This document shows, piece after piece, positions 5,262-53,396 of a DNA stretch of 64,000 nucleotides (positions within the stretch are counted from its first letter, which is position 1; the number at the start of each line of letters is the position of its first letter). The stretch comes from a virus, in the IMG/VR virus record IMGVR_UViG_3300031215_000009, positions 17,442-81,441 of that record; one strand, 5' to 3'. Below the pieces are notes generated by a model. The model searched no databases. It was not told the DNA's origin and saw only the letters and a program-made list of their open reading frames with translations. The position numbers and the translations under genes were made by a program.

Positions 5262-5290
5262 GTATAATAAAACACAACAAAACACATTAA

Positions 5291-5320
5291 AAAAGGAATC
5301 TCAAAAGGATTCCTTTTTTT
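5291..5320 (+). terminator. intrinsic terminator
   Basis: AAAAGGAATC (5291-5300) pairs with GATTCCTTTT (5308-5317) and continues into a T run. Confidence 0.85.
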
Positions 5321-5323
5321 ATT

Positions 5324-5332
5324 GATTAAATA
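5324..5332 (+). promoter_or_regulatory. late-type promoter box
   Basis: GATTAAATA 22 nt before the ATG at 5355. The 27 bases from 5323 match those from 9046 exactly. Confidence 0.55.
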
Positions 5333-5354
5333 TTAAAACTTAGAATTACTATAC

Positions 5355-10065: not shown

Positions 10066-10470
10066 ATGGCAGGACTACAACACTTATTCGATATTTATAG
10101 TAAACAAGGAAACGAGTTTATACAAGATATGTTTAGTAAACAATTAATTGTATCGGAAAAACCAGATGGTTGTCTAAAATATGATACTATTTTAGAAACC
10201 GAAGATGGATTAAAGACAATACAAGAAATATGCGAAACTCAATACAAAGGTAAAGTTAAATCATATTGTATAGAAACTAATAGTATAGTTTGGGATTGTA
10301 TAATAAATCATCTAATAAAGGAAGACCTTTCAAAAGTATGGTTTGAATTAGAATCTACCAATGGACAAATAATAACAGTAACTGGCAACCATAAAATATA
10401 CTGTTCAGATTTAAAAATGTGGAAAAGAGTTGATGAATTAGATGGTACCGAATTGTTATTGTTTAAATAA
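10066..10470 (+). CDS. ATP-dependent ligase N-terminus fused to intein N-half
   Basis: Only 35 residues of ligase precede the intein: GLQHLFDIYSKQGNEF then LIVSEKPDG, which is nucleotidyltransferase motif I (K-x-D-G) with the Lys that would accept AMP. Cys-36 starts a 99-residue intein N-half (block A CLKYDTILE, block B VTGNHKIY), ending in a stop at 10468. The C-half and the rest of the ligase start at 10829. Without trans-splicing the catalytic Lys is separated from all other motifs, so activity depends on splicing. Confidence 0.85.
   Translation: MAGLQHLFDIYSKQGNEFIQDMFSKQLIVSEKPDGCLKYDTILETEDGLKTIQEICETQYKGKVKSYCIETNSIVWDCIINHLIKEDLSKVWFELESTNGQIITVTGNHKIYCSDLKMWKRVDELDGTELLLFK
10171..10467 (+). 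other. split intein N-half (ligase motif I)
   Basis: 99 residues. Cys1, block A CLKYDTIL, block B TVTGNHKI, VDELDGTEL near the end, then a stop. Insertion follows KPDG. Confidence 0.88.
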
Positions 10471-10547
10471 AGAAAGGGTATCATAGGAATTGTAGTTCCT
10501 CGCCCTTTCTTTAAAATAATTATTAACTAATGTATTTAACACACTAA
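10469..10547 (+). promoter_or_regulatory. mobile-gene leader hairpin, copy 1, with five-codon stub
   Basis: AAAGAAAGGG (10469-10478) pairs with CCCTTTCTTT (10503-10512) around an inner AGGAA/TTCCT hairpin (10485-10500). The shared AT-rich linker leads to ATGTATTTAACACAC at 10530, giving a stub MYLTH then stop. The same leader lies before relics at 18691 and 26460. Confidence 0.72.
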
Positions 10548-10552
10548 AAGAA

Positions 10553-10753
10553 TGTCCAATTTGCAAAAAGAAAATGAAATTTTTTGTAGGTAGACCGTGA
10601 TGTAAATGCCGCTTGTAACATAAAATCTTTTACTTTAAAAAATATCTTGAGTACGGAACATACTCTTAAAAATCAAGGTAAGTTGCCAATATTAGTTGGA
10701 GCGTTAACCCTTGAAGCCCATCCCATCACCTCTGGCGTGGGTGGGTAGTTCAC
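10553..10753 (+). mobile_element. TnpB (IS605 OrfB) C-terminal remnant with omega-RNA-like right end
   Basis: In one frame (10553-10600) the sequence reads CPICKKKMKFFVGRP, half of a zinc-finger. After a frameshift, 10593-10748 reads DRDVNAACNIKSF..., the final RuvC motif of TnpB nucleases (DRDxNAAxNI), to a stop. The 3' part GAAGCCCATCCCA (about 10713-10725) pairs with TGGGTGGGTAGTTC (10738-10751), the typical hairpin of IS605-type right ends and of omega-RNA scaffolds, ending GTTCAC. The protein is clearly dead. The element sits between the two halves of the ligase intein, together with an alien leader (10469). Confidence 0.75.
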
Positions 10754-10800
10754 TAGTTCTTTGGGAAACATATATAAATAATGCGAGTGATTCGGAATTA

Positions 10801-10807
10801 TTAAATA
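10801..10807 (+). promoter_or_regulatory. late-type promoter box before intein C-half
   Basis: TTAAATA ending 21 nt before the ATG of the ligase C-half. It would let the two halves be made from separate transcripts. Confidence 0.4.
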
Positions 10808-10828
10808 CAATAACTAAAATAATATCAA

Positions 10829-10942
10829 ATGGAAATAACGAAAATAAAATCTATAAAGAAATTAGACAATAAATTTACTTGTTATGACATAACAACGGAA
10901 AAAACCCATAATTTCTTTGCTAATGAAATATTAGTTCACAAT
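10829..10942 (+). other. split intein C-half (ligase motif I)
   Basis: 38 residues from its own ATG. Block F THNFFANEI and block G LVHN, followed by Ser+1. Confidence 0.88.
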
Positions 10943-12565: not shown

Positions 12566-15052
12566 ATGGCAAACGAAGATGTTATCAAAAAAGATATGAT
12601 TAGTGAACTAAAGGATATGGAATCTGAAAACGACCAACGTCATTTAGAACCTGTAAACGTAGTAGTTGGAAGATTTCAACCCTATACGATTGGTCATTTA
12701 AGTATGGCAAAAGAATTAGAAAAAATCAATGGTTTACCATCGGTTTATATTTATATAAGAAGTAAAAGTGGTAAAAATGCAAAATTTACAGATAAGTTGA
12801 CTATCAACTACATGGAAGATGTTGTTCAAGGTCAACCATTAGTAAGAGATGCCTGGGCAATGGAATCTGCATTTATTCCTGTTATTATACTTGAATCGCA
12901 AAGAAGAGGATATAATCCAGTACTTATTGGTGCAGGGGAAGATAGAGCAAAGTCATATAAAGGTATGGCAAAGAGAATGAAAGATGTTGTAACACACCCA
13001 GATTTCGAAATAAAAGAACTTAAAGGAAGAATAACATCAGCAACAGAAGTTAGACAAGCTATTTTAGATGATGACAAGAAAAAATTTAATAAACTTGTTC
13101 CCAAACAAGTACAACCATATTATACACAACTTAAAGCAGAATTAGAAGCAAGTTTAGTTGAATCTATTAATGTTTCTGATATTGTAAACAACTTTGATGT
13201 TGATATTGATGAGATGGAATCTATACTTTATAAATATGATGAAGATTTCTTTTCTGATGTATTGATTATTGAAAGTATTTTAGAATATGAACTAACACAA
13301 AAAACAATTAAAACTATGAATGAAGATACTATGTCCCCAGCAGTAAAAAAAGAAATGATTTCAGTAATTACTACCTATACAGGAGCAAGAAATTCTTTTA
13401 TTGAAAAAAAGATAGAAAATAATCCTAATTGGGATTGGAATAAAATTACATCTGCATTAACTTCTAAAGATAAAAAAGAAAAAAAGAAAGTAGTTGATGT
13501 TATTATGGGATGGGGTTCAGAAATAGATAAAAAATATATTAATGAATCTATTAATGAGGCTGCAATGTCTAAAGATACTAAGAAATTCCTTAAAGGGATG
13601 AAAAAGATTAAAATAAATGAATTAGGTGGATGGATGCCTGGTCATAAATATATTTATTTTGATAGTAATGATTCTAAATATTACTTTGTTGACTTTGAAG
13701 GAGATCACATGGAATTAAAAAACGAAGGCACACTAAAAGAATTAGAAAAATTCTTGAAAAAGAATGAATCTAATCATATTGAATTAGTACATGTTTACGA
13801 TGAAGATGGTTCATTATTCGGAACAGGTGAATTAATTAAAACTAAAGGAGATAAATCATTAGTTAGTTTTGATGCAAATACAGAAAAATGGGTTAAATCT
13901 AAATTAGTTAAACTTGTCGAATCTAAAGTGAATGAGAAACTTAAACTAAACAGTAACTATCCTGTATATCATCACACATTTGGTTCAGCATTAGATGCTA
14001 TTTCAGCATACGCAGAATCAGGTGGATATAATATCGACCAACAAGAATTCTTCACTGCATTTGGAGATGCCTTCTTTAAACCAAAGAAAGGTAAAACTTT
14101 AAGTAAATCAGTTGAATTGCAAGATAAAAACGGAAACGTAGTTGGTGTATTACATTCTTCAATATACAATAGAGGTGTTGATGGTAAAACATACGAATTG
14201 ACTATGTATTCTGACCAAACTAAAAAAGGATTGAGAGAATCAGTAAACGAAAGTAAAGGTAACTTTAAGGATGCTTTAAAAGTTATGAACTTTAAAGATG
14301 CTTCTAAAGAAGATGTACATAGTATGATTACAGATTTCTTTGGTGAAGATGGTGTTCCTGTATTAGAACACATGACATCTAAACATGGTGAATCAATAAA
14401 CAAAGCACACACAAGATTCTTCGAAAGAGTTATTGCATTCAAAAAAGGTGAATTAACTTTAGAATCTTTAGATAGTATAAAAGAAAGAGAATCAATTCCT
14501 TACTTATCTAAAATTACAGAATCTAAATTGGAATCATTTAAAGATGCACTTACAGAAATGGTAGGTTCTAATGAATATGAAGCTAAACTTGATGCCGCAA
14601 TTTGTATGTTAGTTAAATCTAACAGACCTGTTGTCTGGGAAGATTTCAAATCTCAAATGTTAAGTTGTGATTTCTTTAAGAAAGATTTTAAACCATTCTT
14701 AATGATGCAAGGTTTAAATGATTATCAGATTGATAAATTCATTGAAAATATACTTAGAGTAAAGTATCAACATTATACAAATTATTTCACTGGATCAATT
14801 CCATTGCAATATGTAAAGGAATCTGAACAAATTCTAGAAGCAACCGTCGAAGATGGACTAGCAGGAATTATTGCAAGATATACAGGAGCAAGAGCTACAC
14901 ACATTCTAAAAGTAATGGCAGAACAACCAGAAATTGATTGGACTAAAGTTGCAAAGGATATTTCAACTACTGATAAACATGGATTACGAAGATCATTCAT
15001 GTTCCCATCAAAAAAGGAAACAGAAAACTTTAATAAAGTATATTTAAAGTAA
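12566..15052 (+). CDS. large protein with N-terminal NMN-adenylyltransferase-like domain
   Basis: 828 residues. Residues 30-195 form a cytidylyltransferase-type nucleotidyltransferase: VVVGRFQPYTIGHL has the GRFQPxxxGH motif, and RITSATEVRQAI matches the ISATxVR substrate-loop motif of NMN adenylyltransferases. This enzyme class joins NMN and ATP to NAD. The remaining 600 residues are helical and of unknown role. They hold an internal repeat: YTGARNSFIEKK...NWDWNKI (near residue 272) and YTGARATHILKV...IDWTKV (near residue 775). Several LVE/S- and INE-type sites suggest processing by the head protease. A virion-borne NAD-metabolism protein is one idea. Confidence 0.65.
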   Translation: MANEDVIKKDMISELKDMESENDQRHLEPVNVVVGRFQPYTIGHLSMAKELEKINGLPSVYIYIRSKSGKNAKFTDKLTINYMEDVVQGQPLVRDAWAMESAFIPVIILESQRRGYNPVLIGAGEDRAKSYKGMAKRMKDVVTHPDFEIKELKGRITSATEVRQAILDDDKKKFNKLVPKQVQPYYTQLKAELEASLVESINVSDIVNNFDVDIDEMESILYKYDEDFFSDVLIIESILEYELTQKTIKTMNEDTMSPAVKKEMISVITTYTGARNSFIEKKIENNPNWDWNKITSALTSKDKKEKKKVVDVIMGWGSEIDKKYINESINEAAMSKDTKKFLKGMKKIKINELGGWMPGHKYIYFDSNDSKYYFVDFEGDHMELKNEGTLKELEKFLKKNESNHIELVHVYDEDGSLFGTGELIKTKGDKSLVSFDANTEKWVKSKLVKLVESKVNEKLKLNSNYPVYHHTFGSALDAISAYAESGGYNIDQQEFFTAFGDAFFKPKKGKTLSKSVELQDKNGNVVGVLHSSIYNRGVDGKTYELTMYSDQTKKGLRESVNESKGNFKDALKVMNFKDASKEDVHSMITDFFGEDGVPVLEHMTSKHGESINKAHTRFFERVIAFKKGELTLESLDSIKERESIPYLSKITESKLESFKDALTEMVGSNEYEAKLDAAICMLVKSNRPVVWEDFKSQMLSCDFFKKDFKPFLMMQGLNDYQIDKFIENILRVKYQHYTNYFTGSIPLQYVKESEQILEATVEDGLAGIIARYTGARATHILKVMAEQPEIDWTKVAKDISTTDKHGLRRSFMFPSKKETENFNKVYLK

Positions 15053-15054
15053 AC

Positions 15055-15086
15055 AAAAAGGGAATCGTAATTGATTCCCTTTTTTA
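15055..15086. terminator. bidirectional terminator between convergent genes
   Basis: AAAAAGGGAATC (15055-15066) pairs with GATTCCCTTTTT (15073-15084). A/T flanks serve both the NMNAT gene (+) and the glycosyltransferase (-). Confidence 0.8.
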
Positions 15087-15112
15087 ATATGAATAAATGT
15101 GATTAATATCAT

Positions 15113-15937
15113 TTAATACCACGATTTACCCTGTGCTTTTAGTTTTTCTTTTAATTCCTTTGTTGGTCGTCCCCAATTATCATCATTAACCATTTCCCTG
15201 ACAATATCTCTAAAAGTATCTCCAGCTCCATAAGTTACTTTATGATGTTCTTCTTTAGACATTCCAGATTCTTTTGTTGTAGTTCCTTCTGTTTCGTTAT
15301 GATGTTCTACAAATGATGTTCCTACAAATATATGTGGAATTTGATGATGTTGCAATGCAACACTATACCAATTGTCACAAAACCAAAACTTTACACGTTC
15401 TTCGAGTTTACCTATTTTATCAAATACGTTTCTTGATTGAAATAAACACCAACCTGCAATATGTTGTCTCACACCATATCCAACTTCAATATTGTTTAAT
15501 TTCCTTTTATGCCACATTTCTCGTGGATTACAAGGAGATGCTGAAACAAATTCCCATTGTGCCGGATTTCCTTTTCTTTGTGCATTTATTAAACCTATTA
15601 TTTCAGACGCCCAACCTGGTTTAAATACTAAATCGTTGTTACATAAACAAGTCCATTCTGCAGACCCATGTTCTAATCCTACATTTAAGTATGTGTGATA
15701 CCCAAATTCTTTATCTGTATAAACAGTTTTAATAGAATGTCCTTTACCCTCAATATCATCATACGATGTGTCTTTGTTGGATTCTACTACTATTATATTA
15801 AATTTTATATTGCTGGATTCTTCACTATCTATAAGTGTTTCTATTGTTGTAAGTGATTCTTTGTGTAATTTTTTACTTTTCGCCCAGGATATGATAACCA
15901 TATCAACCTCAGTGTGTTTCAAATTAATTTGTGACAT
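15113..15937 (-). CDS. family 2 glycosyltransferase
   Basis: 274 residues, GT-A fold. The N-terminus VDMVIISWAKSKKLHKESLTTIETL and NIIVVESNKD is the nucleotide-sugar binding start, YLNVGLEHGSAEWTCLCNNDLVFKPGW carries the DxD-like NND motif, and WCDNWYSVALQHHQIP is the acceptor-side region. It would transfer a sugar to DNA bases, a virion protein or a host surface glycan; the acceptor is not readable. It is one of the few minus-strand genes. A TTAAATA box on the minus strand (15974-15980) lies about 37 nt upstream of its ATG. Confidence 0.78.
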   Translation of the reverse strand: MSQINLKHTEVDMVIISWAKSKKLHKESLTTIETLIDSEESSNIKFNIIVVESNKDTSYDDIEGKGHSIKTVYTDKEFGYHTYLNVGLEHGSAEWTCLCNNDLVFKPGWASEIIGLINAQRKGNPAQWEFVSASPCNPREMWHKRKLNNIEVGYGVRQHIAGWCLFQSRNVFDKIGKLEERVKFWFCDNWYSVALQHHQIPHIFVGTSFVEHHNETEGTTTKESGMSKEEHHKVTYGAGDTFRDIVREMVNDDNWGRPTKELKEKLKAQGKSWY

Positions 15938-17808: not shown

Positions 17809-18597
17809 ATGAAAAAAGTAGTATTAAAAACAGTAGACTTAGTAAAGTTCAATAGCTTTATAGATTCTTTAATCCCACTTAGTGAATCGGGAACAATATA
17901 TTTCAAGATTGATTCAGAAGGATTAAGTACAGATTCACACAATAGTAGTGGAACTATTATTAAAAGTTTGAGAACAAGTATAGGTGAAATTTGTGGTGAA
18001 AGCAACTTAGATAAAGTTGAAGGACCAATTAAATTTTGTTTCTATGATGGTAAAAAAGTAAAAAAAGCATTTTCATTCCTAAGTGGTAGTGATATTAAAT
18101 GTGAAATTACATTTCAAAAATTAGATTCAACAGGTGAATTGTTTGCAGAATCTATGAGAGTTTCAAGTCCTAAAATATCATTTACCTTAGATGCAGCAGA
18201 CCCTGATTTATTCGAATTTGCAAATGTACCAGCAGAATCTATTGCAGAGGTAAAAGATGTAACAAATGCTGATTGTAACTTTAGAATGACAGCAAATGAA
18301 ATTTTACAAGTTCAAAAGTTTTTTGACTTTGATACAAATGAAGAAGTTGAATTTCAAGTTAATGGTGAAGTAAGAGTTGTTTCTGAAGGTGCATATAATA
18401 TTGCAATATCAGATGATTTTGAAGGTTTATCAGGTGGTGGAACAAATTCTTATAAAGTTTCAAAAGACTTGTTTAAATTGTTAGATTTCAACACTTATAT
18501 AGTTTATCCATTGATAGATGAATGTAAAATCATTTTCGAAGCAGAAGATAAAACATCAGAAGTAGTACTTACCTTACACGAAGATTTAGAATTGTAA
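17809..18597 (+). CDS. 45: sliding clamp gp45-like
   Basis: 262 residues with the alternating strand/helix pattern of a clamp subunit: VDLVKFNSFIDSLIPLSESGTIYFKIDSEGLS at the start and EVRVVSEGAYNIAISDDF followed by a C-terminal IIFEAEDKTSEVVLTLHEDLEL. It is slightly longer than T4 gp45 (228). Position strengthens the call: it sits between the two polymerase fragments and near other replication genes. A trimeric ring that tethers gp43 and activates late transcription through gp55 and gp33 is the known T4 role. Alternative: another replication accessory protein. Confidence 0.6.
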   Translation: MKKVVLKTVDLVKFNSFIDSLIPLSESGTIYFKIDSEGLSTDSHNSSGTIIKSLRTSIGEICGESNLDKVEGPIKFCFYDGKKVKKAFSFLSGSDIKCEITFQKLDSTGELFAESMRVSSPKISFTLDAADPDLFEFANVPAESIAEVKDVTNADCNFRMTANEILQVQKFFDFDTNEEVEFQVNGEVRVVSEGAYNIAISDDFEGLSGGGTNSYKVSKDLFKLLDFNTYIVYPLIDECKIIFEAEDKTSEVVLTLHEDLEL

Positions 18598-18620
18598 AAT
18601 TTGGGAATATAAAAGTATTT

Positions 18621-18690
18621 GATTAAATAAAGAAAGGAACTATAATAGGACTCGAATCCTAAGTTCCTTTCTTTAAAATAATTAAACTTA
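18621..18690 (+). promoter_or_regulatory. mobile-gene leader, copy 2 (late box plus 5' hairpin)
   Basis: GATTAAATA (18621-18629) runs directly into AAAGAAAGGAAC (18629-18640), which pairs with GTTCCTTTCTTT (18663-18674) around an inner AGGACTCGAATCCT hairpin. A linker of 16 nt leads to ATGTATTTAACACAC at 18691, as in copies 1 and 3. Confidence 0.75.
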
Positions 18691-18780
18691 ATGTATTTAA
18701 CACACACCCAAATAATCCCAAATTCTGGAGGATTGTATCAAATAAGAAATAAAAATTTCAATAATTATAAATACATTTGA
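18691..18780 (+). pseudogene. GIY-YIG homing endonuclease N-terminal relic
   Basis: A 29-codon frame MYLTHTQIIPNSGGLYQIRN then KNFNNYKYI, stop at 18778. SGGLYQIRNK...YKYI matches the GIY...YIG core of GIY-YIG endonucleases (SGIYKIxNxxNxKxYIG). The stop directly precedes the ATG of polymerase fragment B, so the rest of the nuclease is gone. It marks an invasion at the polymerase break. Confidence 0.6.
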
Positions 18781-19521
18781 ATGATTAAAATAAGAGATAT
18801 GACAACTGATGAAATAGAGAACTTTGATTATAGTTCTCTATCAGAATCTGAGAAAGCCAATATCATTAGGGAACTAACTGACGAAGCAGCAATCAAAGGT
18901 ACACTTGAACAATCTAATAAATTAGTTCTTAACTCTATTTATGGTTCGATGGCATCTATATTTTTCTATTTTTATAATAAGAGTTTAGCGGAAACAATAA
19001 CAGGACAAGGACAAGATGCTATTCGATATGCTGAAAGGGCAGTTGATTCTTATTTTCAAAACATTTTACACAAAGATAAATTTATTCTTAATAAATTAAA
19101 AGAAATTTGTCCAGATGTGAATGTAACCCCCGAACCTTGTGTTAAACCAACAGTTGTTTATATTGACACAGATAGTGTTGATAAAGATACTATTATTAGT
19201 ACAAATAAAGGAAATATTAGAATAGAAGATTTGTATAACGAAAATTCTATTAATGCAGGGGGAACCAAAAGTGGGCACGAATCTGTTGAAACTAACAGAA
19301 CAGTATTGAATTGGTCAGAAACTAATGGACTTTATCAAGCACCAGTAAAAAGAATTATTAGACACAAAGTATCTAAAGCAAAATGGAAACTTAAAACTAA
19401 ATCTGGAAAAGAAGTAACTGTAACTAACGACCACTCTATGATTGTATTTAGAAATGGGGTTAAGATAGAAGTTAAACCATCTGAAATATTAAAAACCGAT
19501 AAAATATTGTCAATTAGGTAA
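18781..19521 (+). CDS. 43B: DNA polymerase gp43, fragment B1 (motif B) plus intein N-half
   Basis: Residues 1-131 are polymerase: a helix from the fingers, motif B KLVLNSIYGSM, and VVYIDTD of motif C. The second catalytic Asp of DTDS is the last extein residue. Ser-132 starts an intein N-half of 115 residues (SVDKDTIISTNKG, block B VTVTNDHSMI, end LKTDKILSIR). The other half starts at 19732. With fragment A and B2 the polymerase adds up to about 907 residues, matching T4 gp43 (898). Activity needs protein trans-splicing here and assembly of A with B. Confidence 0.88.
   Translation: MIKIRDMTTDEIENFDYSSLSESEKANIIRELTDEAAIKGTLEQSNKLVLNSIYGSMASIFFYFYNKSLAETITGQGQDAIRYAERAVDSYFQNILHKDKFILNKLKEICPDVNVTPEPCVKPTVVYIDTDSVDKDTIISTNKGNIRIEDLYNENSINAGGTKSGHESVETNRTVLNWSETNGLYQAPVKRIIRHKVSKAKWKLKTKSGKEVTVTNDHSMIVFRNGVKIEVKPSEILKTDKILSIR
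19174..19518 (+). other. split intein N-half (polymerase motif C)
   Basis: 115 residues, longest N-half here. First residue is Ser (SVDKDTIIST), not Cys. Block B is VTVTNDHSM. Inserted between D and S of YIDTDS. Confidence 0.85.
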
Positions 19522-19532
19522 CTTTGTAGTTT

Positions 19533-19562
19533 ATATAGATTAAATTTAGAAAGTCTATATAA
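19533..19562 (+). other. stem-loop in polymerase intein gap
   Basis: TTATATAGA pairs with TCTATATAA around an AT-rich loop, between the N-half stop and the small frame at 19566. It lacks a T run and could be a processing site or a weak terminator. Confidence 0.5.
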
Positions 19563-19565
19563 AAT

Positions 19566-19766
19566 ATGAATTTAAAAGAACAAATAAAAGGATTTAGAAA
19601 TAGAGAGATAAATTACATAGTGCGAATATGTGATATATTAGAATTTGATAGTTGCATAGTAACGGGAGAATCTATAATATATCCAAATACTAAAATTAGA
19701 CAACACAAAGACGGTGAAATTTACTTAGAAAATGAAATACGAAATAGAAGAAATAGAATACATTGA
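19566..19766 (+). CDS. small unknown protein in polymerase intein gap
   Basis: 66 residues (MNLKEQIKGFRNREINYIVR...), no recognised family. It fills the only gap between the polymerase intein halves and overlaps the C-half start (19732) by 35 nt. The basic N-terminal helix could bind nucleic acid. It may be a shrunken homing endonuclease or DNA-binding relic, given what occupies the equivalent gap in the gp41 gene. That it is made as a protein is uncertain. Confidence 0.4.
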   Translation: MNLKEQIKGFRNREINYIVRICDILEFDSCIVTGESIIYPNTKIRQHKDGEIYLENEIRNRRNRIH

Positions 19767-19860
19767 GTGTATAGGAGAATTTGATGATGAATATGTTTAT
19801 GATATAGAAGTTGATGATGATACCCATACATTTATTGCAAATGATATATTGGTTCATAAT
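19732..19860 (+). other. split intein C-half (polymerase motif C)
   Basis: 43 residues. Block F DTHTFIAND, block G ILVHN, Ser+1 follows. Confidence 0.87.
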
Positions 19861-20685
19861 TCTGCTTATGTGACTTTTGAAGAAGTTGCAAAGAAAATCA
19901 ATTGGACAGGTTCAGCAACGGATTTAGTACTTACTATCAATAAACACAGACTAGAATCTTATTTAAAGAAAGTGTTTGAAAAGTATGCTGAATCTTATAA
20001 TACTGAAAATTATTTAGATTTTGAATTAGAAACAATCAGTAAATCGGGTATTTGGGTAAAGAAAAAGAAATATACACAAGACATTGTGTGGGCTGATGGT
20101 AAGTTCTATGATAGTGGTAGTTACACAAAAACAACAGGATTGGAGATCATTAGATTAACTACACCTCCATTTTGTAGACCAGAATTAGTTAAATTAGTTC
20201 AATGGATATTCGATAAAGGTAAACAATTTACACAAAGAGATATTACAATTGAATTGTTGAAATTAAAGAAAAGATTTGCAATTGTTGACATTGAAGATAT
20301 TAGTATTACAACAGGAATAGGTGATTATGAAAAATATATTCTTAGTGACACTAATGGGTTAAAAGTTGCAAGTGGTTGTGGAACTCACATTAGAGGAGCA
20401 GGGATTTATAATATGTACCTTAATAACAATCCAGATTATGAAAATAAGTATGAAAGATTAAAAACAGGTGACAAAGTTAAGTGGTATTATGCAAAATCAC
20501 ACAAAGAAGAATTAAATGTTTTTAGTTACAAACGTGGTTCACACCCTAAAGAGTTTGCACCAGAAATAGACATTGATTTGATGTTTGAAAAAACAGTGAT
20601 AAACCCACTAAATAATATTCTTCAAGCAATGCCAGGGATTAATGCATTATCTGGTTCATTGAAGATCAAAAAAAGATTATTTTAA
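19732..20685 (+). CDS. 43B: intein C-half plus DNA polymerase gp43 fragment B2
   Basis: Residues 1-43 are the intein C-half (YVYDIEVDDDTHTFIAN, DILVHN), Ser+1 continues SAYVTFEEV to rebuild YIDTDSAYVTF. The following 274 residues are the rest of the palm and thumb: GIWVKKKKYTQDIVWADGKFYD is the conserved KKKY block of family B polymerases, and the thumb ends at GSLKIKKRLF. A short basic-hydrophobic tail (KKRLF) could dock on the clamp. The ATG at 19732 is chosen because it gives a C-half of typical length. Confidence 0.88.
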   Translation: MKYEIEEIEYIECIGEFDDEYVYDIEVDDDTHTFIANDILVHNSAYVTFEEVAKKINWTGSATDLVLTINKHRLESYLKKVFEKYAESYNTENYLDFELETISKSGIWVKKKKYTQDIVWADGKFYDSGSYTKTTGLEIIRLTTPPFCRPELVKLVQWIFDKGKQFTQRDITIELLKLKKRFAIVDIEDISITTGIGDYEKYILSDTNGLKVASGCGTHIRGAGIYNMYLNNNPDYENKYERLKTGDKVKWYYAKSHKEELNVFSYKRGSHPKEFAPEIDIDLMFEKTVINPLNNILQAMPGINALSGSLKIKKRLF

Positions 20686-20702: not shown

Positions 20703-21011
20703 ATGGCAAAAACAAGTAAAAAACATAGTTCCGTTGATGATATATTCAAAGAACTTAACGAAGTTAATCCTTTTGGTAGTAGTAGTTTCGGTACCTCAGA
20801 GATTTATAAAAACAACAACTGGATTGATTCTGGTAATTGGATTCTTAATGCAGCATTAAGTGGTTCAATTAAAAAAGGGTTTCCAAGTACTAAACAAACA
20901 TCATTAGTAGGAGAATCTGGTTGTTTACCGAAAGAAGAAGTTGTTCGATTATATATACTAAAGAGTATAGATAATTATGATAGAGAAATTATTAACGAGG
21001 AACATATCTAA
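20703..21011 (+). CDS. uvsX: UvsX recombinase N-terminus plus short intein N-half
   Basis: Residues 1-73 are the N-terminal part of a UvsX/RecA-type recombinase, ending at SLVGESG, the first half of Walker A. Cys-74 starts an intein N-half of only 29 residues (CLPKEEVVRLYIL...NEEHI) with block A but without blocks N2, B. The rest of the intein is carried on the next frame. This is an early ('atypical') split, unlike the four other inteins in this window. The stop at 21009 is followed by a TAACAC/GTGTTA stem-loop. Confidence 0.85.
   Translation: MAKTSKKHSSVDDIFKELNEVNPFGSSSFGTSEIYKNNNWIDSGNWILNAALSGSIKKGFPSTKQTSLVGESGCLPKEEVVRLYILKSIDNYDREIINEEHI
20922..21008 (+). other. split intein N-half, very short (UvsX Walker A)
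   Basis: 29 residues, block A only. Inserted in GESG^SGKT. Confidence 0.83.
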
Positions 21012-21052
21012 CACTAAATCTTTATTTTGTGTTAAGGACGAAAACAAAAAAT

Positions 21053-21520
21053 ATGAAAATAGAAATTATTAAAAAAGAGTTAACTCATTGTGGATATGAC
21101 ATCGACAAGTTAACTGATGGGGAATTAACTAAGTTATTCAATACTCATTGCGAAGAACATTCTGAATTAGTTAAAGTACAAGATTTAATTGAAAATAAAC
21201 TATCTAACTTTATAGTTATAGATACACCAGATGGATTTCAAGAAATTAGTACTATTTATAATAAAAAGGAAAGACCTATATATGAAATAGTATTGACTAA
21301 TGGATTTAAAGGACTATCTTCTAATGACCACTTATATGAAACACCAACTGGATGGGTTAAAGCCGAAGTACTTAAAAAATCTGATTTAGTATTGACTAAA
21401 GATGGAGTTTACGAGGTATCTACTATAAATAAAAAAGACAAAGAATTAGTATATGATTGGACAGTAGAACACGAAAACCATAGATACTGGTCTGGTGTTG
21501 GAGGTATTAGTTCCCATAAT
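21053..21520 (+). other. split intein C-half, long (UvsX Walker A)
   Basis: 156 residues containing everything after block A. Block G is SSHN followed by Ser+1. The first 50 or so residues are extra compared with a minimal intein. Confidence 0.82.
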
Positions 21521-22525
21521 AGCGGTAAAACATTCTTAACACTTAACGCTGTAAGGAATGCACAATTAGCTGGTTACACACCAATTTATTACGATACAGA
21601 AGGTGCTGTTGACCCTGATAGTTGTTTGAATTTCGGTATTGATTTAAAAAACTTTAGACACGAACCAGTTTCGGAGATTGAAAAGTTGAAAACAATGTAT
21701 GCTATTTTCATCAAGAACTTAACCGCATTGAAAATCAAAGGACAAGAAATTCCTAAATTTATTCTGATTCTTGATTCAATCGGAATGGTTGCATCATCAA
21801 AAGAAATAGAAGATGCAAGAACTGGAAATAGTGCCGCAGATATGACAAGAGCAAAACAAATACGTTCGTTCTTTAGAATTATCACATCAGATTTGAATTC
21901 ATTAGGAATTCCAATGATATTCACAAACCATACAATGGTAAACATTGGTGGTTATGGAGACCCAGTTGTTCAAGGTGGTGGAGGTGGTGTTGTTTATTCC
22001 CCAAGTATCACATTATACTTATCAAAAGCAAAATTGAAAGATGATAAGAATGATGATAAAAGACAAACAGGTGTAATTGTAACAGCCAAGACCGGAAAGA
22101 ATAGATTTGCACAACCTAAAACTATTAAGTTTCCTATATTCTTTGATAGACCATTCAACAGATATATGGGTGTTCAAGATTATCTAAGTTGGGATAATGT
22201 AGGAATTGCAAAAGGAAATCTATTAACAAAATCTGAATATAATAAACTTAAAGGACAAGCAAAAGAAAAGATAAAAGTTTTTACACCAGACAACTCAGAT
22301 GAAATAATGTATTTCGCACCAAAAGAAACAGCGAGAAAATATGTTGTTGAACATTTAGGCGAAGCAATCGACACGAGACAATTATTTTCTGAAAGAGTTA
22401 TGAAACCATTAGAAGATAGATTTGATGCTGTAATTAGAAAAGATTTCGAATTTAGTTCACAAGAAACCGATGAAGAAATTGAAGAAATACTTCACAATGA
22501 TGATGAAGAACTAAACGAAGATTAA
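21053..22525 (+). CDS. uvsX: long intein C-half plus UvsX recombinase body
   Basis: Residues 1-156 are the intein C-part: an N-terminal helical region of about 50 residues (MKIEIIKKELTHCGYDIDKL), block B-like SSNDHLYETPTGWVKAEVL, then YDWTVEHENHRYWSGVGG (block F) and ISSHN with Ser+1. The extein restarts with SGKTFLTLNAVR, restoring Walker A GESGSGKT, and continues with FILILDSIGMV (Walker B) and a Gly-rich loop GYGDPVVQGGGGG. Spliced UvsX has about 407 residues (T4 391). The acidic tail (DEEIEEILHNDDEELNED) is usual for UvsX. An ATG at 21029 is also possible. Confidence 0.88.
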   Translation: MKIEIIKKELTHCGYDIDKLTDGELTKLFNTHCEEHSELVKVQDLIENKLSNFIVIDTPDGFQEISTIYNKKERPIYEIVLTNGFKGLSSNDHLYETPTGWVKAEVLKKSDLVLTKDGVYEVSTINKKDKELVYDWTVEHENHRYWSGVGGISSHNSGKTFLTLNAVRNAQLAGYTPIYYDTEGAVDPDSCLNFGIDLKNFRHEPVSEIEKLKTMYAIFIKNLTALKIKGQEIPKFILILDSIGMVASSKEIEDARTGNSAADMTRAKQIRSFFRIITSDLNSLGIPMIFTNHTMVNIGGYGDPVVQGGGGGVVYSPSITLYLSKAKLKDDKNDDKRQTGVIVTAKTGKNRFAQPKTIKFPIFFDRPFNRYMGVQDYLSWDNVGIAKGNLLTKSEYNKLKGQAKEKIKVFTPDNSDEIMYFAPKETARKYVVEHLGEAIDTRQLFSERVMKPLEDRFDAVIRKDFEFSSQETDEEIEEILHNDDEELNED

Positions 22526-22890: not shown

Positions 22891-22917
22891 GTGTTTAATA
22901 CACAAAGAAAGATATAT

Positions 22918-24240
22918 ATGATAAACACTAATGAATTTGAGAAGATATTTTTACTGTACGCATTGCAAACACCTGTCTATTTAGAACCAGTTGAACAAGG
23001 GTTCTTTTCCGTACCAGAAATAGATTTACTTGCTACCCTATCAAAAAGGTATTACAAGAAATATAAAATTGCACCTACAAAAGATAACTTGTGGATGCTT
23101 ATTTCAACAGGAGAATTAGAACAACGATGTCCTAAAGTATTTTTTGATGAAATATTTAAGAAAAAAATAGAATCTTATGATATTGCTTGGGTAGAAGAAA
23201 CAGCTCAATCGTGGATCAAATGGAAACATTTAGACTCATCTATCATTGATACAGTTGAATATATCAATACTGTAAAGGTTACACCTGAAAATGTTAGTTC
23301 TATTGTTGATGATGTTAAAAATATGATTAATGGTAGAAACAATATTACTTTTGATGATGATTTAGGTTCAGATTTCTTTGATACAAAATCTCACGTTCGT
23401 GACCCACAAGATTTATTAAGTTCTAATTATGATTTCTTAGACAAAAACCTTGGTGGGCACTCTAAAGGAACATTAAATGTTTATGTTGCACCACCAAACA
23501 CAGGAAAATCGTTATTCTTAGCACAAGATGCTGCTAATTATATGAAAGCAGGTAAAAATGTATTGTTTATCTCATTAGAAATGGGAGGACAAAAGGTTCA
23601 TAAAAGAATTGGTTCAGATATTTTCAATATTGCTATGAGTGATTATGATAACAAAGCAGATGATACTGATTTCATGCATCGCAAAATTTCTGAATTCAAA
23701 GCACATAGTATAATTGAACCAGGTGCATTAACAGTAAAGAATTACGAAACAAGTAATGCAACTGCCGATGATATTGATAATTTTATTGGTAAAGTTCAAG
23801 ATATTACAGGATTAGTTTATGATGTTGTAATAGTGGATTATATTAATATCATGAAAGATATTAGAAATCCTAATTCAGAATCAACATACATCAAGATTAA
23901 AAACATTTGTGAAGATTTAAGAGCAGTTGCTCAAAGAAGACATGTAGTTCTTTTAAGTGCAACACAAACTAACAGATGTTTAAGTTTAGATACTAAAGTA
24001 CAAACTAAAGAGGGAGAAATGGAAATATCTAAAATAAAAGAAGGTGACTTTATTATGGGAACAGAAGATTGGGTTAAAGTTACTAAAGTTTACCCAATAG
24101 AAACACTACCTAAAGTATTGAAACTTAAAACCAAATCAGGAAAAGAAATTGTTTGTGGTCATAATCACTTATTCCCAATAGGAGATAAATTAGTAAAAGC
24201 ATCCGACTTAGTAATTGGAGACAAATTAACAAGTAAATAG
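22918..24240 (+). CDS. 41: replicative helicase gp41, N-terminal part, plus intein N-half
   Basis: Start chosen at 22918 (MINTNEFEK), because the ATG at 22891 lies in the terminator tail. Residues 1-353 are a DnaB-family helicase: N-terminal domain, then VYVAPPNTGKSLFLAQ (Walker A), LFISLEMGGQKVHKR (motif H1a region), VVIVDYINIM (Walker B), and LLSATQTNR where the extein stops. Cys-354 starts an 87-residue intein N-half (CLSLDTKVQTKEG, block B CGHNHLF). The missing last 83 helicase residues come from 25478. gp41 unwinds DNA 5'-3' at the fork. Confidence 0.9.
   Translation: MINTNEFEKIFLLYALQTPVYLEPVEQGFFSVPEIDLLATLSKRYYKKYKIAPTKDNLWMLISTGELEQRCPKVFFDEIFKKKIESYDIAWVEETAQSWIKWKHLDSSIIDTVEYINTVKVTPENVSSIVDDVKNMINGRNNITFDDDLGSDFFDTKSHVRDPQDLLSSNYDFLDKNLGGHSKGTLNVYVAPPNTGKSLFLAQDAANYMKAGKNVLFISLEMGGQKVHKRIGSDIFNIAMSDYDNKADDTDFMHRKISEFKAHSIIEPGALTVKNYETSNATADDIDNFIGKVQDITGLVYDVVIVDYINIMKDIRNPNSESTYIKIKNICEDLRAVAQRRHVVLLSATQTNRCLSLDTKVQTKEGEMEISKIKEGDFIMGTEDWVKVTKVYPIETLPKVLKLKTKSGKEIVCGHNHLFPIGDKLVKASDLVIGDKLTSK
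23977..24237 (+). other. split intein N-half (gp41 helicase)
   Basis: 87 residues. Cys1 in CLSLDTKV, block B IVCGHNHLF, LVIGDKL at the end. Same host gene and same kind of site as the gp41 split inteins reported from marine metagenomes. Confidence 0.9.
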
Positions 24241-24299
24241 GTGTTTGTGTTGCAGATAATAGTTTTTGAGTAAATAGTATTGTATAAATGTCATATATT

Positions 24300-25487
24300 A
24301 TGAAATCAAAAACTATTAAAAATAACATACAAAAAATCATAGAGCAAGACAATTATAATAAATCAAATGTCGAAATTAATTTTCGTAGATTGTTAGTATT
24401 CTTTAGATTCTTTGAAAAAAATATTAGATTCGTCCAGATATATCAAACAACAAAGAAACTTCAATTATTAAAAAAACTATATTATATGTTTCAATACAAT
24501 ATAGAAATAGAAACATCTACAAATTTAGATGAAAAATGGACAAATTTATTGTCTTTGTCATCTAAAGATAGTTCATCTATTGAATATCATACTATCATAT
24601 ATGGACAAAAATTAGGTAAGGTTATACAAGAAAACAAATCAAAGAAAACTGCAATTACTGTTAATAATTTTATTAACAAGGTAGGTACTCTTTATAAAAA
24701 TATCGAAGAAGCCAAAGTAGCATATAGAAATAGTAGAAATGGAACAAGTGATGTAAAGTTTAAAGAAAAATTTGGAACGAACTGGAAGGAACACAAACAA
24801 GAGTATTTAGACAGGAAACGACATAAACAATCAGTAGAGTATTTAGGGGAAGATGAATACAATAAAAGAAAAGAATATCACAAATACTATAATACGAAAG
24901 ACGGATATATCAAAAAGCATGGATTTGTAAAGGGATATGGTTTATGGAAAAGTAAAAATAATAATATTAGAAAGTCTAATAAATTATTAACACACAACCG
25001 AGATAATAATAGTTTACCTGCACATATTCAAAGATATGGTATATTCAAAGGTAACCAAATATATAAAAATCTTTGTTCAAAACAAAGACAAATATCAATA
25101 GTAAATGAATCGTATAAATATTTTGGTAAAAATAATGGTGCTATTAGTAAAATATCAATGGTATTATATGATATGTTAATTCCATTTATTGATAATATAG
25201 AATGTGAGTTTAAAATAAATAGATATTATTTTGACTTTAAGATAGGTAAGACTATTATAGAGTTTAATGGTGACTATTGGCACTGCAATCCTATGATTTA
25301 TGAACATGACCAATTAGTAAAATTTCCAAATAGAACAATACCCGCTAATACTAAATGGGAAGAAGATAAAAAGAAAATTAAAGTTGCTAAAGATAATGGA
25401 TATGATGTTATTGTTATTTGGGAAAAAGATTTTAGAAATAATAAACAAAAAGTATTACAACAATTAAAAAGAATATTATGTATTTAG
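24300..25487 (+). CDS. Vsr-like (EDxHD) homing endonuclease in the gp41 gene
   Basis: 395 residues from ATG 24300 (a frame ATG at 24288 adds four). The C-terminal 110 residues are a Vsr-type nuclease: RYYFDFKIGKTIIEFNGDYWHCNP (Asp, then E-F-N-G-D-x-W-H), TKWEEDKKKIKVAKDNGYDVIVIWEKDF, as in very-short-patch repair endonucleases and the homing endonucleases described with fractured genes. The middle holds basic repeats (KKHGFVKGYGLWKSK; RYGIFKGNQIYKN) that likely bind DNA. It lies exactly between the two intein halves and overlaps the C-half start by 10 nt, so it is the probable agent that spreads this locus. Confidence 0.85.
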   Translation: MKSKTIKNNIQKIIEQDNYNKSNVEINFRRLLVFFRFFEKNIRFVQIYQTTKKLQLLKKLYYMFQYNIEIETSTNLDEKWTNLLSLSSKDSSSIEYHTIIYGQKLGKVIQENKSKKTAITVNNFINKVGTLYKNIEEAKVAYRNSRNGTSDVKFKEKFGTNWKEHKQEYLDRKRHKQSVEYLGEDEYNKRKEYHKYYNTKDGYIKKHGFVKGYGLWKSKNNNIRKSNKLLTHNRDNNSLPAHIQRYGIFKGNQIYKNLCSKQRQISIVNESYKYFGKNNGAISKISMVLYDMLIPFIDNIECEFKINRYYFDFKIGKTIIEFNGDYWHCNPMIYEHDQLVKFPNRTIPANTKWEEDKKKIKVAKDNGYDVIVIWEKDFRNNKQKVLQQLKRILCI

Positions 25488-25591
25488 ATGAAATAATAGA
25501 AATAGAAACAATAGACAATATAGATACCGTAGATATTGAAGTATCAGGTAAAGATAGATTATTTTATGCTAATAATATTTTAACTCACAAT
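25478..25591 (+). other. split intein C-half (gp41 helicase)
   Basis: 38 residues. Block F RLFYANNI, block G LTHN, Ser+1. Confidence 0.9.
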
Positions 25592-25843
25592 AGTGGTTTT
25601 GAGAGTTCAAATATTAATATGGGAATGATTGCAGAATCAGCTGGTTTAGCAGCAACTTGTGATACTATCATGGCAATTATTCAAACACCTGATATGAACC
25701 TAGAAGGATTCTATTGGTTGAAACTATTAAAAGTTAGAGATGGTTCCGGTAAAGGAATAAAGTGTAAAATTGATATAGATTATGAATACATGAGATTGCA
25801 CGAAACCAACACGGTATTGTTTGACGATGGTAGTGGTGAATAA
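25478..25843 (+). CDS. 41: intein C-half plus gp41 helicase C-terminus
   Basis: Residues 1-38 are the intein C-half (VDIEVSGKDRLFYANN, ILTHN). Ser+1 begins SGFESSNINMGMIAESAGLAATCD, the C-terminal RecA-core segment that in T4 gp41 follows the QLNR motif, and it ends DDGSGE. Spliced gp41 is about 436 residues. Translation start at 25478 overlaps the end of the endonuclease gene, so the half may be made by coupling. Confidence 0.9.
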   Translation: MYLDEIIEIETIDNIDTVDIEVSGKDRLFYANNILTHNSGFESSNINMGMIAESAGLAATCDTIMAIIQTPDMNLEGFYWLKLLKVRDGSGKGIKCKIDIDYEYMRLHETNTVLFDDGSGE

Positions 25844-26371: not shown

Positions 26372-26390
26372 TATGTCAAAAGTATTTTGA

Positions 26391-26459
26391 ATAAATAAAG
26401 AAAGGAACTATTATAGAACTGCAAATTCTAAGTTCCTTTCTTTAAAAATAATTAACTTA
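26391..26459 (+). promoter_or_regulatory. mobile-gene leader, copy 3
   Basis: ATAAATA, then AAAGAAAGGAAC (26397-26408) pairing with GTTCCTTTCTTT (26432-26443), then the same linker ATTAACTTA before ATGTATTTA at 26460. About 85% identical to copy 2 over the leader. Confidence 0.73.
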
Positions 26460-26805
26460 ATGTATTTAATCTCACGAGAATGGAGTATCAGAACTCCATA
26501 TTATTTCTACAAAACAACAAATCTTATTAGCAATAAATTCTACTACGGTAGTGGAACGGATAAAGAAAACTACATTAGTTAAAGACAAAAAAGGAAACAA
26601 ATTTCATATCAGTCCAGATGATACTCGATATATAAGTGGTGAATTATTCGGACACACTAAAGGTGATTGGGTTTGGAATAATAGAATACAAATAAACAAT
26701 ATGATAAAAATAGCGAAAGAGTGGAAAGATTTTTATAGTTTAGTAAAATTATCTGAACTAAAATCACATTTAATAAGTAACAATATTAAATTTGAAAAAT
26801 TATGA
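26460..26805 (+). pseudogene. GIY-YIG homing endonuclease relic (N- and C-ends fused)
   Basis: Frame 1 (26460-26582, 40 codons) reads MYLISREWSIRTPYYFYKTT then NLISNKFYYGSGTDKENYIS: the YYxYKTTNxxxxKxYYG pattern of the GIY-YIG catalytic start, then a stop. Frame 2 (GTG at 26551 to 26805) reads TTLVKDKKGNKFHISPDDTR then YISGELFGHTKG, a C-terminal module seen after GIY-YIG and HNH domains in phage endonucleases. The middle of the gene is deleted and the frame shifted. The final 4 nt overlap the gp47 start. A short protein from the GTG cannot be excluded. Confidence 0.68.
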
Positions 26806-49870: not shown

Positions 49871-50200
49871 ATGGCAACACCAATTGTTAGATTAAAACTT
49901 AGTGACATTTTTAAATCATTTCAAATAGATTTAAGAGGGTTTTATAAGAATAGAGTATATGTACAACACCATTTACATATACAACCGTCAGAGATAGATT
50001 CTATGTGTTATTATGAATATCAATGGATGCTTAAAGATTTAGTAGAAATGTTAAAAGAACAAAATGGTGACAAATCCACTAGTCAAGAAGAAACAAACAG
50101 TCAGATGGAAGATATGAAAAACAAAACAAGTAAGTACACGAAAGGGTTTGGTGGTAACAATGTGCCAAAATTAGGCAGTTTCAAAATGCCGAAGATGTAA
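49871..50200 (+). CDS. small tail-assembly-type protein, 3' end duplicated downstream
   Basis: 109 residues. The centre YVQHHLHIQPSEIDSMCYYE then YQWMLKDLVEMLKEQN resembles small assembly proteins in front of tape-measure genes of myophages. The tail NNVPKLGSFKMPKM is basic. Its last 34 coding bases recur, imperfectly, at 50340-50373 behind an inserted leader element. So the 3' end was replaced or copied by an insertion event. Confidence 0.62.
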   Translation: MATPIVRLKLSDIFKSFQIDLRGFYKNRVYVQHHLHIQPSEIDSMCYYEYQWMLKDLVEMLKEQNGDKSTSQEETNSQMEDMKNKTSKYTKGFGGNNVPKLGSFKMPKM

Positions 50201-50373
50201 TTCTGATTAAATAAAAGAAAGGGAATCACTGGACTGGAATCCTATCCCTTTCTAAAATAAACACAACAATTATTTGTATAATTTAGAATGGTGCACACCA
50301 TCTGGAAATACCCTACATTGGATGATTAAATAACATAACAAAGTTAGGTAATTTCAAAATGCCAAAAATGTAA
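50201..50373 (+). mobile_element. 173-bp insertion with duplicated 3' gene end
   Basis: Between the stop at 50200 and 50373 lies a leader hairpin, a 13-codon stub (50288-50329), a GATTAAATA box (50324), and a second copy of the KLGxFKMPKM-stop coding end (50340-50373, about 30 of 34 bases the same as 50167-50200). This is what remains if a homing-type element entered the 3' end of the gene and later lost its own gene. Confidence 0.55.
50206..50287 (+). promoter_or_regulatory. mobile-gene leader, copy 4 (divergent)
   Basis: GATTAAATA, then AGAAAGGGA (50215-50223) pairing with TCCCTTTCT (50245-50253) around GGACTGGAATCC, close to the inner hairpin of copy 2. The sequence after it is different; an ATG at 50288 opens only 13 codons (MVHTIWKYPTLDD). 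Confidence 0.6.
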
Positions 50374-50387
50374 AATAGTCAATTTAG

Positions 50388-53300
50388 ATGGGTGAAAATT
50401 TAGTAGCAGGAATATTAAAGAATATTGAAAGAATGTCTGAAGTTAATATTAATGTTAATTATGACATTCTTTTAGGTATAAAAAAGAATAATATTATTCT
50501 TTCGAAAGTAATAGGTAAAGAACTTAGGATTCAAACAAAACTTTTAAAGGAAATTGTAAATAATTTAACAGGTAGTTCTGTTAATAGTTCACTAAAAGAT
50601 ATAGGTAATCAAACAGGAAATATTTTTAAACGCATTACAAAGAATTTAACAAGTGGTTCTGTTGGTGATTCGCCTATCAAAAAGAAAGAAGACACTTCTG
50701 ATGACAGTTCACCAAAAAATAAGAAAGAAAAATCTTCTGGTCTTGCCTTAGCAGCGCTTGGTATTAAAAACTTTGCACTTATGCTTAAAAAAGGGGCATC
50801 TAAAAACGTTACTAAATTAGCAAAAGCAATCACATTATTAACTAAATCAGTAGAAGGGTTTGCAAAAGCTGTTAATAAAATAGACGAAAAAAAGTTTAAA
50901 TCATTTATGGAAATTTTCTTGCCAATTGGTAAGAAAATTTTCATGTTTTCATTACTTATTGCACTATCAGCACCACTATTGATGATTGGGTTAATTACAA
51001 CACTACCTTTATTGTTTTTGTGGGTTAAATTCTTTAATTGGATAGGAAAATCATCAAAGAAAATAAACAAAGGCGTAAAAATGCTTTTATTTATAGCATT
51101 ATCAACTGCAGTAGTTACTTTAACTGTTTTAATGGCATCTTATGCATTAGGTTCACCATTAAAAACAATGGCAGCATTTGTCTTAGTTGCAGCATCATTG
51201 TTAATTTTAACTTTAGCATATTTCTTAATATCTAAATCTAGTAAAAGTTTAAAAACAGGAGTACTTACAATGTTAATGATGGCTTTAACTACCGCACTAT
51301 TAGTAGCAATTGTTATTATTGCATCTAAGAATCTTGGAGGACCAGAAGAAACATTAATTGCATTTGGGTTAATCGCTGGTTCTTTATTACTTCTTGCATT
51401 TACGTTTTTCCTTATAAGTAAAGTTAAAGGTGATGTTATTGCTGGTTCAGTTGCATTATTAATAGGTGCTGTTGCTGTTATTGCACTTGCTACTGCAATG
51501 ATAATATGGATGAAAGCAAATACAACATGGGAAGGATTAGCAATGTTAGGAGCTGCAATTTTAGGATTAGGTCTTGCTATGGTAGGGTTTGGTGCTGTTT
51601 CTGGATTAGTTATTCCTGGTGCGGCTGCATTAGTTCTTGCTAGTGTTGGTTTATTAGTTTTTTCATCTGCTGTAATGGTTTGGATGAAAGCAAAAACAAC
51701 ATGGGAAGGTATTGGAATGTTAGGAGCTGCAATTATTGGTGTTGGTGTAGCAATGGCTGGTTGGGGAGCAGTTGCTTTTTTAATCATTCCGGGGGCAGCA
51801 GCAATGGTAATAACGGCAGGTGGTTTGTTAATGTTTACACAATCACTTAAAAACTTTCAAGAAGCAAAATGGTCAACAAATAACACAGACAACTTGTTAT
51901 ATTCTATCGAAACTATATTAACAGGGTTCATTACTATATTTGATGATATATCATATAGTGACATTGCAAAAGCAATGTTTGGTGCTAATTTATTAGGAGA
52001 TTTAGGAAATAGTATTAGTCAATTTGCATCCGGGCTAAGCGCATTTGCATCAGGTCAAGAACCCGAATTTGCAGTAAAAGATGGTAAACTGATTTTAGTT
52101 GGTACTAAACCTTTAGGGAAAGACTTAGGTAAAAGAGTAGGAGACACAATTAAAGCTTTGGTTGATCCATTAGTTAGTGATTCAAGTGTATTAGCAAATT
52201 TAGGTGCTGGAGCAGGTTTATTTTTTGATGGACCAATTGGTAATGGTATTGATTTATTAGGAAGATTAGGAAATAGTATTTCTGGATTTGCTAAAGGTTT
52301 ACAATCTATGGCAGAATTAAAAATTCCTATATATGGTAAAAATGATAAAGGTGAATTAGTTGTTACAGGATATGATAAAATGCCTGAAGGATTTGGTGGT
52401 TTAGTTGGAAAGAATATTAAAGCTTTGGTTGATCCATTAGTTAGTGATTCAAGTGTATTAGCAAATTTAGGTGCTGGAGCAGGTTTATTTTTTGATGGAC
52501 CAATTGGTAATGGTATTGATTTATTAGGAAGATTAGGAAATAGTTTAGCCGGTTTTGCAAAAGGTGTACAAGCGTGGGCAAAATTAAAAATTCCTATATA
52601 TGGTAAAAATGATAAAGGTGAATTAGTTGTTACAGGATATGATAAAATGCCTGAAGGGTTTTCAACAAAAGTTGGGGATAATATAAAAATGATGGTTACC
52701 GCTTTAACAAAACCACTAGAAGATTTAGGTAAAAAAGATGGTGGGTGGTTTAGTTCATCGGATTACGAAAACGGATTAAAATTATTAGGAGAATTAGGAG
52801 CACCATTAGAATCACTAGCAAATGCAGCAGAAAAATTTAGTTCTGTTGATGTTGACCCATTAAAAGTTAAAAATGTTGTTAGTGGAACAATTAAATCCTT
52901 TGTTCAAGCATTATCTAAAGATGCTCTTAAAGGACTGGACGAAAAGAAAGGTAAAACAATTCTTGATGGATTTAATTACTTTGCGGATGCTGTAACTAAA
53001 ATAGCAGGTAAAGATACTAAAGATATTGGAACAATGTTTACTAAAGTTAAAGATTCTATTAATACAATGGATTTAAAGAAATTAAACAAATTAAATGACC
53101 TTGCATATAACCTTAGTAAATTTGCTGAAAATATGAAAGGTTCATTTGGTGATTTAGAAGATGTATTAGAAAAACTATCTGATGTTATTAATGAAATGAA
53201 TGGATTGCAAATTGCGGTTCCAAATACAACTAATCAACCTACTACACAAGTAACAAACACAACTCCTACTAATTCACAAAATACTGAATTTAAAACATTA

Positions 53301-53396
53301 GATTTGGGACCATTGTTAGCAGAATTAGATGACATCAAGAATGTGTTAATGTCTGGTATTGAGGTAGAAGTGAAAGGTAATAACCTAAGTTCATAA
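50388..53396 (+). CDS. tape-measure-like protein
   Basis: 1002 residues, largest plus-strand gene. Residues 120-490 hold about ten hydrophobic Ala/Leu/Val-rich stretches (FSLLIALSAPLLMIGLITTL, MLLFIALSTAVVTLTVLMA and others) as in tape-measure proteins. Then two near-identical 89-residue units (IKALVDPLVSDSSVLANLGA ... GELVVTGYDKMPEGF). A helical region and an Asn/Thr linker close the protein. Position after small tail genes, with PhoH and tail tube following, supports a tail ruler or hub role (T4 gp29 counterpart, but longer). A membrane protein is less likely in this context. Confidence 0.68.
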   Translation: MGENLVAGILKNIERMSEVNINVNYDILLGIKKNNIILSKVIGKELRIQTKLLKEIVNNLTGSSVNSSLKDIGNQTGNIFKRITKNLTSGSVGDSPIKKKEDTSDDSSPKNKKEKSSGLALAALGIKNFALMLKKGASKNVTKLAKAITLLTKSVEGFAKAVNKIDEKKFKSFMEIFLPIGKKIFMFSLLIALSAPLLMIGLITTLPLLFLWVKFFNWIGKSSKKINKGVKMLLFIALSTAVVTLTVLMASYALGSPLKTMAAFVLVAASLLILTLAYFLISKSSKSLKTGVLTMLMMALTTALLVAIVIIASKNLGGPEETLIAFGLIAGSLLLLAFTFFLISKVKGDVIAGSVALLIGAVAVIALATAMIIWMKANTTWEGLAMLGAAILGLGLAMVGFGAVSGLVIPGAAALVLASVGLLVFSSAVMVWMKAKTTWEGIGMLGAAIIGVGVAMAGWGAVAFLIIPGAAAMVITAGGLLMFTQSLKNFQEAKWSTNNTDNLLYSIETILTGFITIFDDISYSDIAKAMFGANLLGDLGNSISQFASGLSAFASGQEPEFAVKDGKLILVGTKPLGKDLGKRVGDTIKALVDPLVSDSSVLANLGAGAGLFFDGPIGNGIDLLGRLGNSISGFAKGLQSMAELKIPIYGKNDKGELVVTGYDKMPEGFGGLVGKNIKALVDPLVSDSSVLANLGAGAGLFFDGPIGNGIDLLGRLGNSLAGFAKGVQAWAKLKIPIYGKNDKGELVVTGYDKMPEGFSTKVGDNIKMMVTALTKPLEDLGKKDGGWFSSSDYENGLKLLGELGAPLESLANAAEKFSSVDVDPLKVKNVVSGTIKSFVQALSKDALKGLDEKKGKTILDGFNYFADAVTKIAGKDTKDIGTMFTKVKDSINTMDLKKLNKLNDLAYNLSKFAENMKGSFGDLEDVLEKLSDVINEMNGLQIAVPNTTNQPTTQVTNTTPTNSQNTEFKTLDLGPLLAELDDIKNVLMSGIEVEVKGNNLSS
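52152..52657 (+). repeat. two 267-bp tandem repeats in the tape-measure gene
   Basis: AAAGCTTTGGTTGATCC begins at 52152 and again at 52419. The units are almost identical in DNA over most of their length, including silent positions, so the duplication is recent. Confidence 0.88.

Follow-up and report, generated by a model that had tools for sequence, protein, structure and literature searches.

Mobile ORFs (mORFs) have been described in fungal mitochondria, namely in atp6, atp9, cox2 and nad3 of Glomus and in atp6 of Allomyces (PMC3630166). In T4-like phages, free-standing homing endonucleases are encoded by intergenic seg and mob genes, some of them (segB, mobE) preceded by hairpin leaders, and their cut sites lie hundreds to thousands of bp away (PMC2988022). 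Here we analysed a 64-kb stretch of DNA (the window; 64,000 nt) from an 81 kb virus record with T4-like genes, in which the remnant of an HNH endonuclease gene lies between two copies of the 3' end of another gene. I-HmuI (PDB 1u3e), to which the intact relative of this endonuclease is related in sequence over NUMOD4 and HNH, is intron-encoded, whereas no intron was seen at the element of the window. The Rfam search of the window detected neither introns nor known RNAs, and the upstream copy closes the gene with its own stop, placing the element outside introns and inteins as a free-standing one.

The mechanism proposed below would match that of the fungal mORFs. As in those, an endonuclease element within the 3' portion of a gene appears to have brought its own C-terminal end, and the native end is stranded downstream with mostly synonymous differences (PMC3630166). 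The gene end is present on both sides of the nuclease gene, foreign upstream and native downstream, the two ends of the intact case being seen on two contigs (G001 and G007), not one. The locus differs from mORFs in its phage host, its HNH type and its end of 11 codons compared to the longer C-terminal ends of mORFs (PMC3630166), as well as in having a stereotyped hairpin leader with three-frame stops and one version at a 5' end. With the T4 seg and mob genes it shares the phage host, HNH and GIY-YIG genes, hairpin leaders and co-conversion of flanks, but the best-studied T4 hairpins sequester the RBS, whereas the hairpin found here ends before the ATG (PMC2988022). A term search of the T4 mobile-element review brought up no duplicated coding ends (PMC2988022), and no phage report of coding-end replacement was found in the literature searched, the coverage of which is incomplete.

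Organization of the duplicated gene end

The product of the target gene has weak likeness to the T4 gp51-type baseplate hub assembly catalyst (PHROG 634, E=0.025). Orthologues occupy the same position in L007-L011, while the sole matches among phage records were Sphingomonas phage PAU and a single uncultured phage, and a profile search of genome contigs with the target-gene alignment gave no relative. For the N-terminus of the following tape-measure-like gene no relatives were found at the sequence level used. The features of the locus, all on the + strand, are as follows.

49871..50200, +, target gene, a 109-aa ORF directly upstream of the tape-measure gene
50136..50193, +, near-identical tract, imported or co-converted coding end (57/58 identical to G001)
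50168..50200, +, copy 1, the element-borne 3' coding end in use (KLGSFKMPKM stop), from the repeat comparison
50204..50214, +, leader start TGATTAAATAA with stops in all three frames, from the leader comparison
50205..50258, +, homing-endonuclease-gene leader of a dispersed family (92.6% identical to G001 14944-14996)
50216..50253, +, leader hairpin whose fold is retained among the copies with compensatory changes
50253..50333, +, what is left of a NUMOD4/HNH endonuclease gene, its final 26 codons with the stop, the 5' part being deleted and the leader fused to the tail
50341..50373, +, copy 2, native target-gene 3' end left stranded (KLGNFKMPKM stop), with 14 nt between it and the tape-measure ATG
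50388..53396, +, tape-measure-like gene, 1002 aa, intact, named from its position and repeats

The original prediction that the gene end is repeated downstream, with mostly silent or conservative changes, was borne out. The direct repeat (50166-50200 and 50339-50373) extends over 35 nt with 30 identical positions (86%), compared to a chance best of 23/35 in 20,000 Markov-simulated stretches of 187 nt and a runner-up of only 22/35 in the whole window. Both copies read KLG(S/N)FKMPKM followed by a stop, and their five differences comprise four synonymous changes and one Ser/Asn exchange. An automatic scan of the window, G001 and G007 revealed no other strong long coding-end duplications.

A hairpin and a 13-codon stub had also been predicted between the copies; the hairpin stood, whereas the stub proved to be an out-of-frame reading of the end of an HNH gene. 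A DNA pattern search with the stub hit a single contig, L044 (G007), which carries in the same slot the intact nuclease that had been proposed as a check, a NUMOD4/HNH endonuclease gene of the I-HmuI type. The stub matches the 3' end of this ORF, and its interpretation as a 5' stub was thus ruled out. The L044 protein scored 29.5 bits for HNH_3 (above the cut-off of 24.8) and 19.1 bits for NUMOD4 (below the cut-off of 23.4), and matched PHROG HNH families (E=7e-28) and I-HmuI in the PDB (1u3e, E=4e-8). Since its 26 terminal codons match 50253-50333, with 96% amino acid identity between the remnant and residues 85-110, the 13-codon ORF (50288-50329) is the endonuclease tail read out of frame, the HNH reading frame lying one base later. 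The catalytic first half has been lost from the window nuclease, and the window element is therefore dead. Leader and HNH tail are joined at a short A/T-rich stretch that both sequences share, in keeping with fusion by an internal deletion.

The leader has relatives at 10463, 18621 and 26386 in the window, at 3553 and 14944 in G001, and in L054, L057, L058, L060 and L070. In eight of the nine copies tested the opening bases provide stops in all three frames, and the third hairpin pair after GG is G-C, A-U or U-A, a compensatory pattern. Leaders precede intact HNH (L054) and GIY-YIG (L058, L070) genes and persist as shortened scars in L009 and L068. The other copies are mostly intergenic and without coding-end duplication, which was counted against a model of replacement ends. 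By the T4 precedent the hairpin may limit nuclease expression, although the nuclease start codon lies outside it here.

Several further leader sites were observed. Leader and stub at 18595-18705 of the window, which separate a sliding-clamp-like gene from the second portion of a split DNA polymerase gene, are 100% identical to G001 3530-3640 over 111 nt against flanks of about 79%, which suggests a very recent exchange. Between the tail sheath gene and the next tail gene (L070/L068), G002 has a leader with an intact GIY-YIG gene and G003 only a shortened leader. At the gp46 3' end an intact GIY-YIG gene with repeated DNA-binding motifs (L058 178-1179), a decayed one (G001 14944-15440) and an empty site (window 29518) were found. 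At 10463-10830 of the window, a leader copy within a split intein is followed by fragments resembling the C-terminus of TnpB (DVNAACNIKS), which apparently derive from a dead nuclease.

Related phages and the origin of the two copies

The original prediction had called for orthologous loci with and without the insertion, and L007, L008 and L010 indeed lack it: the gene stop is followed by about 15 nt and the tape-measure ATG. L009 has a single gene end and then a shortened leader. In L002 a brief leader-like piece follows the stop, and then a degenerate second gene end without hairpin or nuclease; in none of 5000 simulations were known gene ends matched as well as by this second copy. The element or its scar is thus found at the site in four of seven lineages, a presence/absence polymorphism among related phages. 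The spacing of 14-15 nt between stop and tape-measure ATG is kept in the window, in L002 and in the empty sites. As the spacing behind copy 2 is that of the empty sites, copy 2 is native, and copy 1 with the intervening DNA constitutes the insertion.

Identity to relatives gives the same assignment. The tract at 50136-50193 matches G001 at 57 of 58 positions, compared to 205/265 (77%) in the rest of the target gene (Fisher p=3e-5), and in other relative pairs the same tract is 62-89% identical. Copy 1 equals G001 at 26/26 nt and differs from copy 2 at 5/33. The nuclease tail (50255-50341) is identical to G007 at 86/87 positions, but the adjoining copy 2 only at 27/34 (p=5e-4), and the copy 2 of G007 has drifted to KLGNFSMPKM. 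The flanks are only about 75-80% identical, and the tape-measure start 58-80%. The high identity of tract and tail against diverged flanks indicates that the end of the upstream gene travelled with the element. Judged by these comparisons, the upstream copy 1 is the one imported with the element, while the downstream copy 2 shares the history of the host genome, in agreement with the predicted arrival of one copy from a related phage. The near-identical tract begins some 31 nt upstream of where the element inserted and may in part be flank co-converted during repair, not element.

Copy 1 and the intact nuclease are linked through two contigs from the same sample, G001 and G007, and not within a single contig. 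These come from one metagenome and match different, complementary regions of the window, each terminating at the element; presumably they represent the same phage or near kin. Their ends do not overlap, and when the contig collection was searched with copy 1, only the known contig and no bridging one came up.

Some other features of the relatives were recorded. In L007 (4353-4530) the tape-measure frame stops after 57 codons and is then open, either a sequencing error or a real interruption. In the distant relative L015 a TnpB-looking ORF of 408 aa (about 4855-6080) lies shortly behind the gp51-like gene. In the distant relatives L004 (3001-3030) and L005 (3001-3050) the gp51-like region begins in another frame inside the end of a T4_baseplate gene, which a programmed frameshift like that of lambda G/GT could explain.

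Proposed homing and alternative explanations

Very probably, 50168-50340 represents a decayed free-standing homing element that replaced the 3' end of the target gene. The footprint of a homing gene carrying its own version of the target end was what had originally been proposed, and the empty sites and the intact HNH gene in the same slot support it. The intact element would consist of the replacement for the last 11 codons, the hairpin leader with its three-frame stop and the NUMOD4/HNH gene. The comparisons show that it inserted after codon 99 of the target gene in a lineage with an empty site: the upstream part of the gene was joined to the element's own 3' end with the frame kept open, and the native 3' end was displaced downstream and fell out of use. 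A deletion later removed the nuclease gene from immediately downstream of the hairpin up to codon 84. We infer that the HNH enzyme would cut the uninserted 3' end, which would be repaired from the element-bearing phage, and that the differences of the replacement end (the four synonymous changes and Ser/Asn) would stop self-cutting, the imported end thereby conferring immunity. The leader may limit or time nuclease expression and insulate the upstream gene.

If the gene end had long ago been tandemly duplicated in place, and hairpin and nuclease fragment had arrived between the copies later, this could account for the degenerate second copy of L002, which is without hairpin or nuclease. Three relatives have a single copy, however, and copy 1 is identical to G001 while differing from copy 2. 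Moreover, since the leader-like start persists after its stop, L002 appears to represent an advanced stage of decay and not the state before insertion, and we regard such a duplication as highly improbable. Very unlikely, too, is a target-site duplication, in which repair of a staggered or illegitimate break doubled about 33 nt and the identical copies then drifted. The final anatomy would be identical and copy 2 of G007 has in fact drifted, but drift predicts that copy 1 follows the divergence of the host gene, contrary to the 57/58 against 77% observed, and the differences between the copies are mostly silent. It could, however, describe how the first element acquired its gene end.

The second copy and the hairpin could also be kept for a present function, the hairpin acting as an attenuator or terminator and copy 2 providing the tape-measure gene with its native context for translation initiation. 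The conserved hairpin fold and the constant spacing to the tape-measure ATG speak for this, but three relatives do without the hairpin, and leaders recur as shortened scars. We consider this explanation unlikely as the reason for the arrangement; it is compatible with the homing element.

A mirror-image case and implications

A similar arrangement was found at the 5' end of the gp47-like gene.

26373..26387, +, stranded native gp47-like start ATGTCAAAAGTATTT, matching the intact G001 start exactly
26386..26804, +, leader and decayed GIY-YIG endonuclease, with an intact endonuclease relative in L058
26802..26834, +, putative replacement gp47 5' coding end ATGAGTAAGGTTTTC, the gene start now being at 26802

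Codons 2-5 all differ synonymously between the replacement and the stranded copy, and the replacement ATGA overlaps the stop of the GIY-YIG endonuclease. On its anatomy, the recoded 5' coding end of gp47 is one supplied by the GIY-YIG element. The first 33 nt of gp47 vary among other relatives too, so the case is weaker on divergence than on anatomy. It was spotted by eye, the stranded piece being only 15 nt long and thus missed by the automatic duplication scan.

Homing elements are very abundant in the window. A DnaB-like helicase gene (22891-25843) is split by intein-like halves with a putative endonuclease of 399 aa between them (weak MTES_1575 match), a layout which we take to resemble the 'fractured gene' split-intein arrangement. 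Intein-like interruptions were also seen in a helicase (730-2832), DNA polymerase B (18781-20685) and a RecA-like gene (20703-22525), the first two with Intein_splicing and Hint matches. Three small proteins (4254, 4668, 49439) share an N-terminus like MK-LN-FL-E, reminiscent of the T4 capsid targeting sequence.

We tentatively suggest that modular homing cassettes, made up of a three-frame stop, a hairpin leader and an HNH or GIY-YIG gene, may carry a built-in 3' or 5' replacement coding end, although we think this somewhat less likely than its opposite. If true, such cassettes could reside at the ends of essential genes with no need for splicing, which would be a third route beside introns and inteins. 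At the present locus, a selfish cutter can apparently occupy an essential-looking gene without intron or intein by replacing the end that it displaces. The seven phages, in which one site has the element present, decayed or lost, provide a natural series of the homing cycle, and the leader scars a DNA tag by which emptied homing sites, and short gene ends exchanged between phages, could be recognized.
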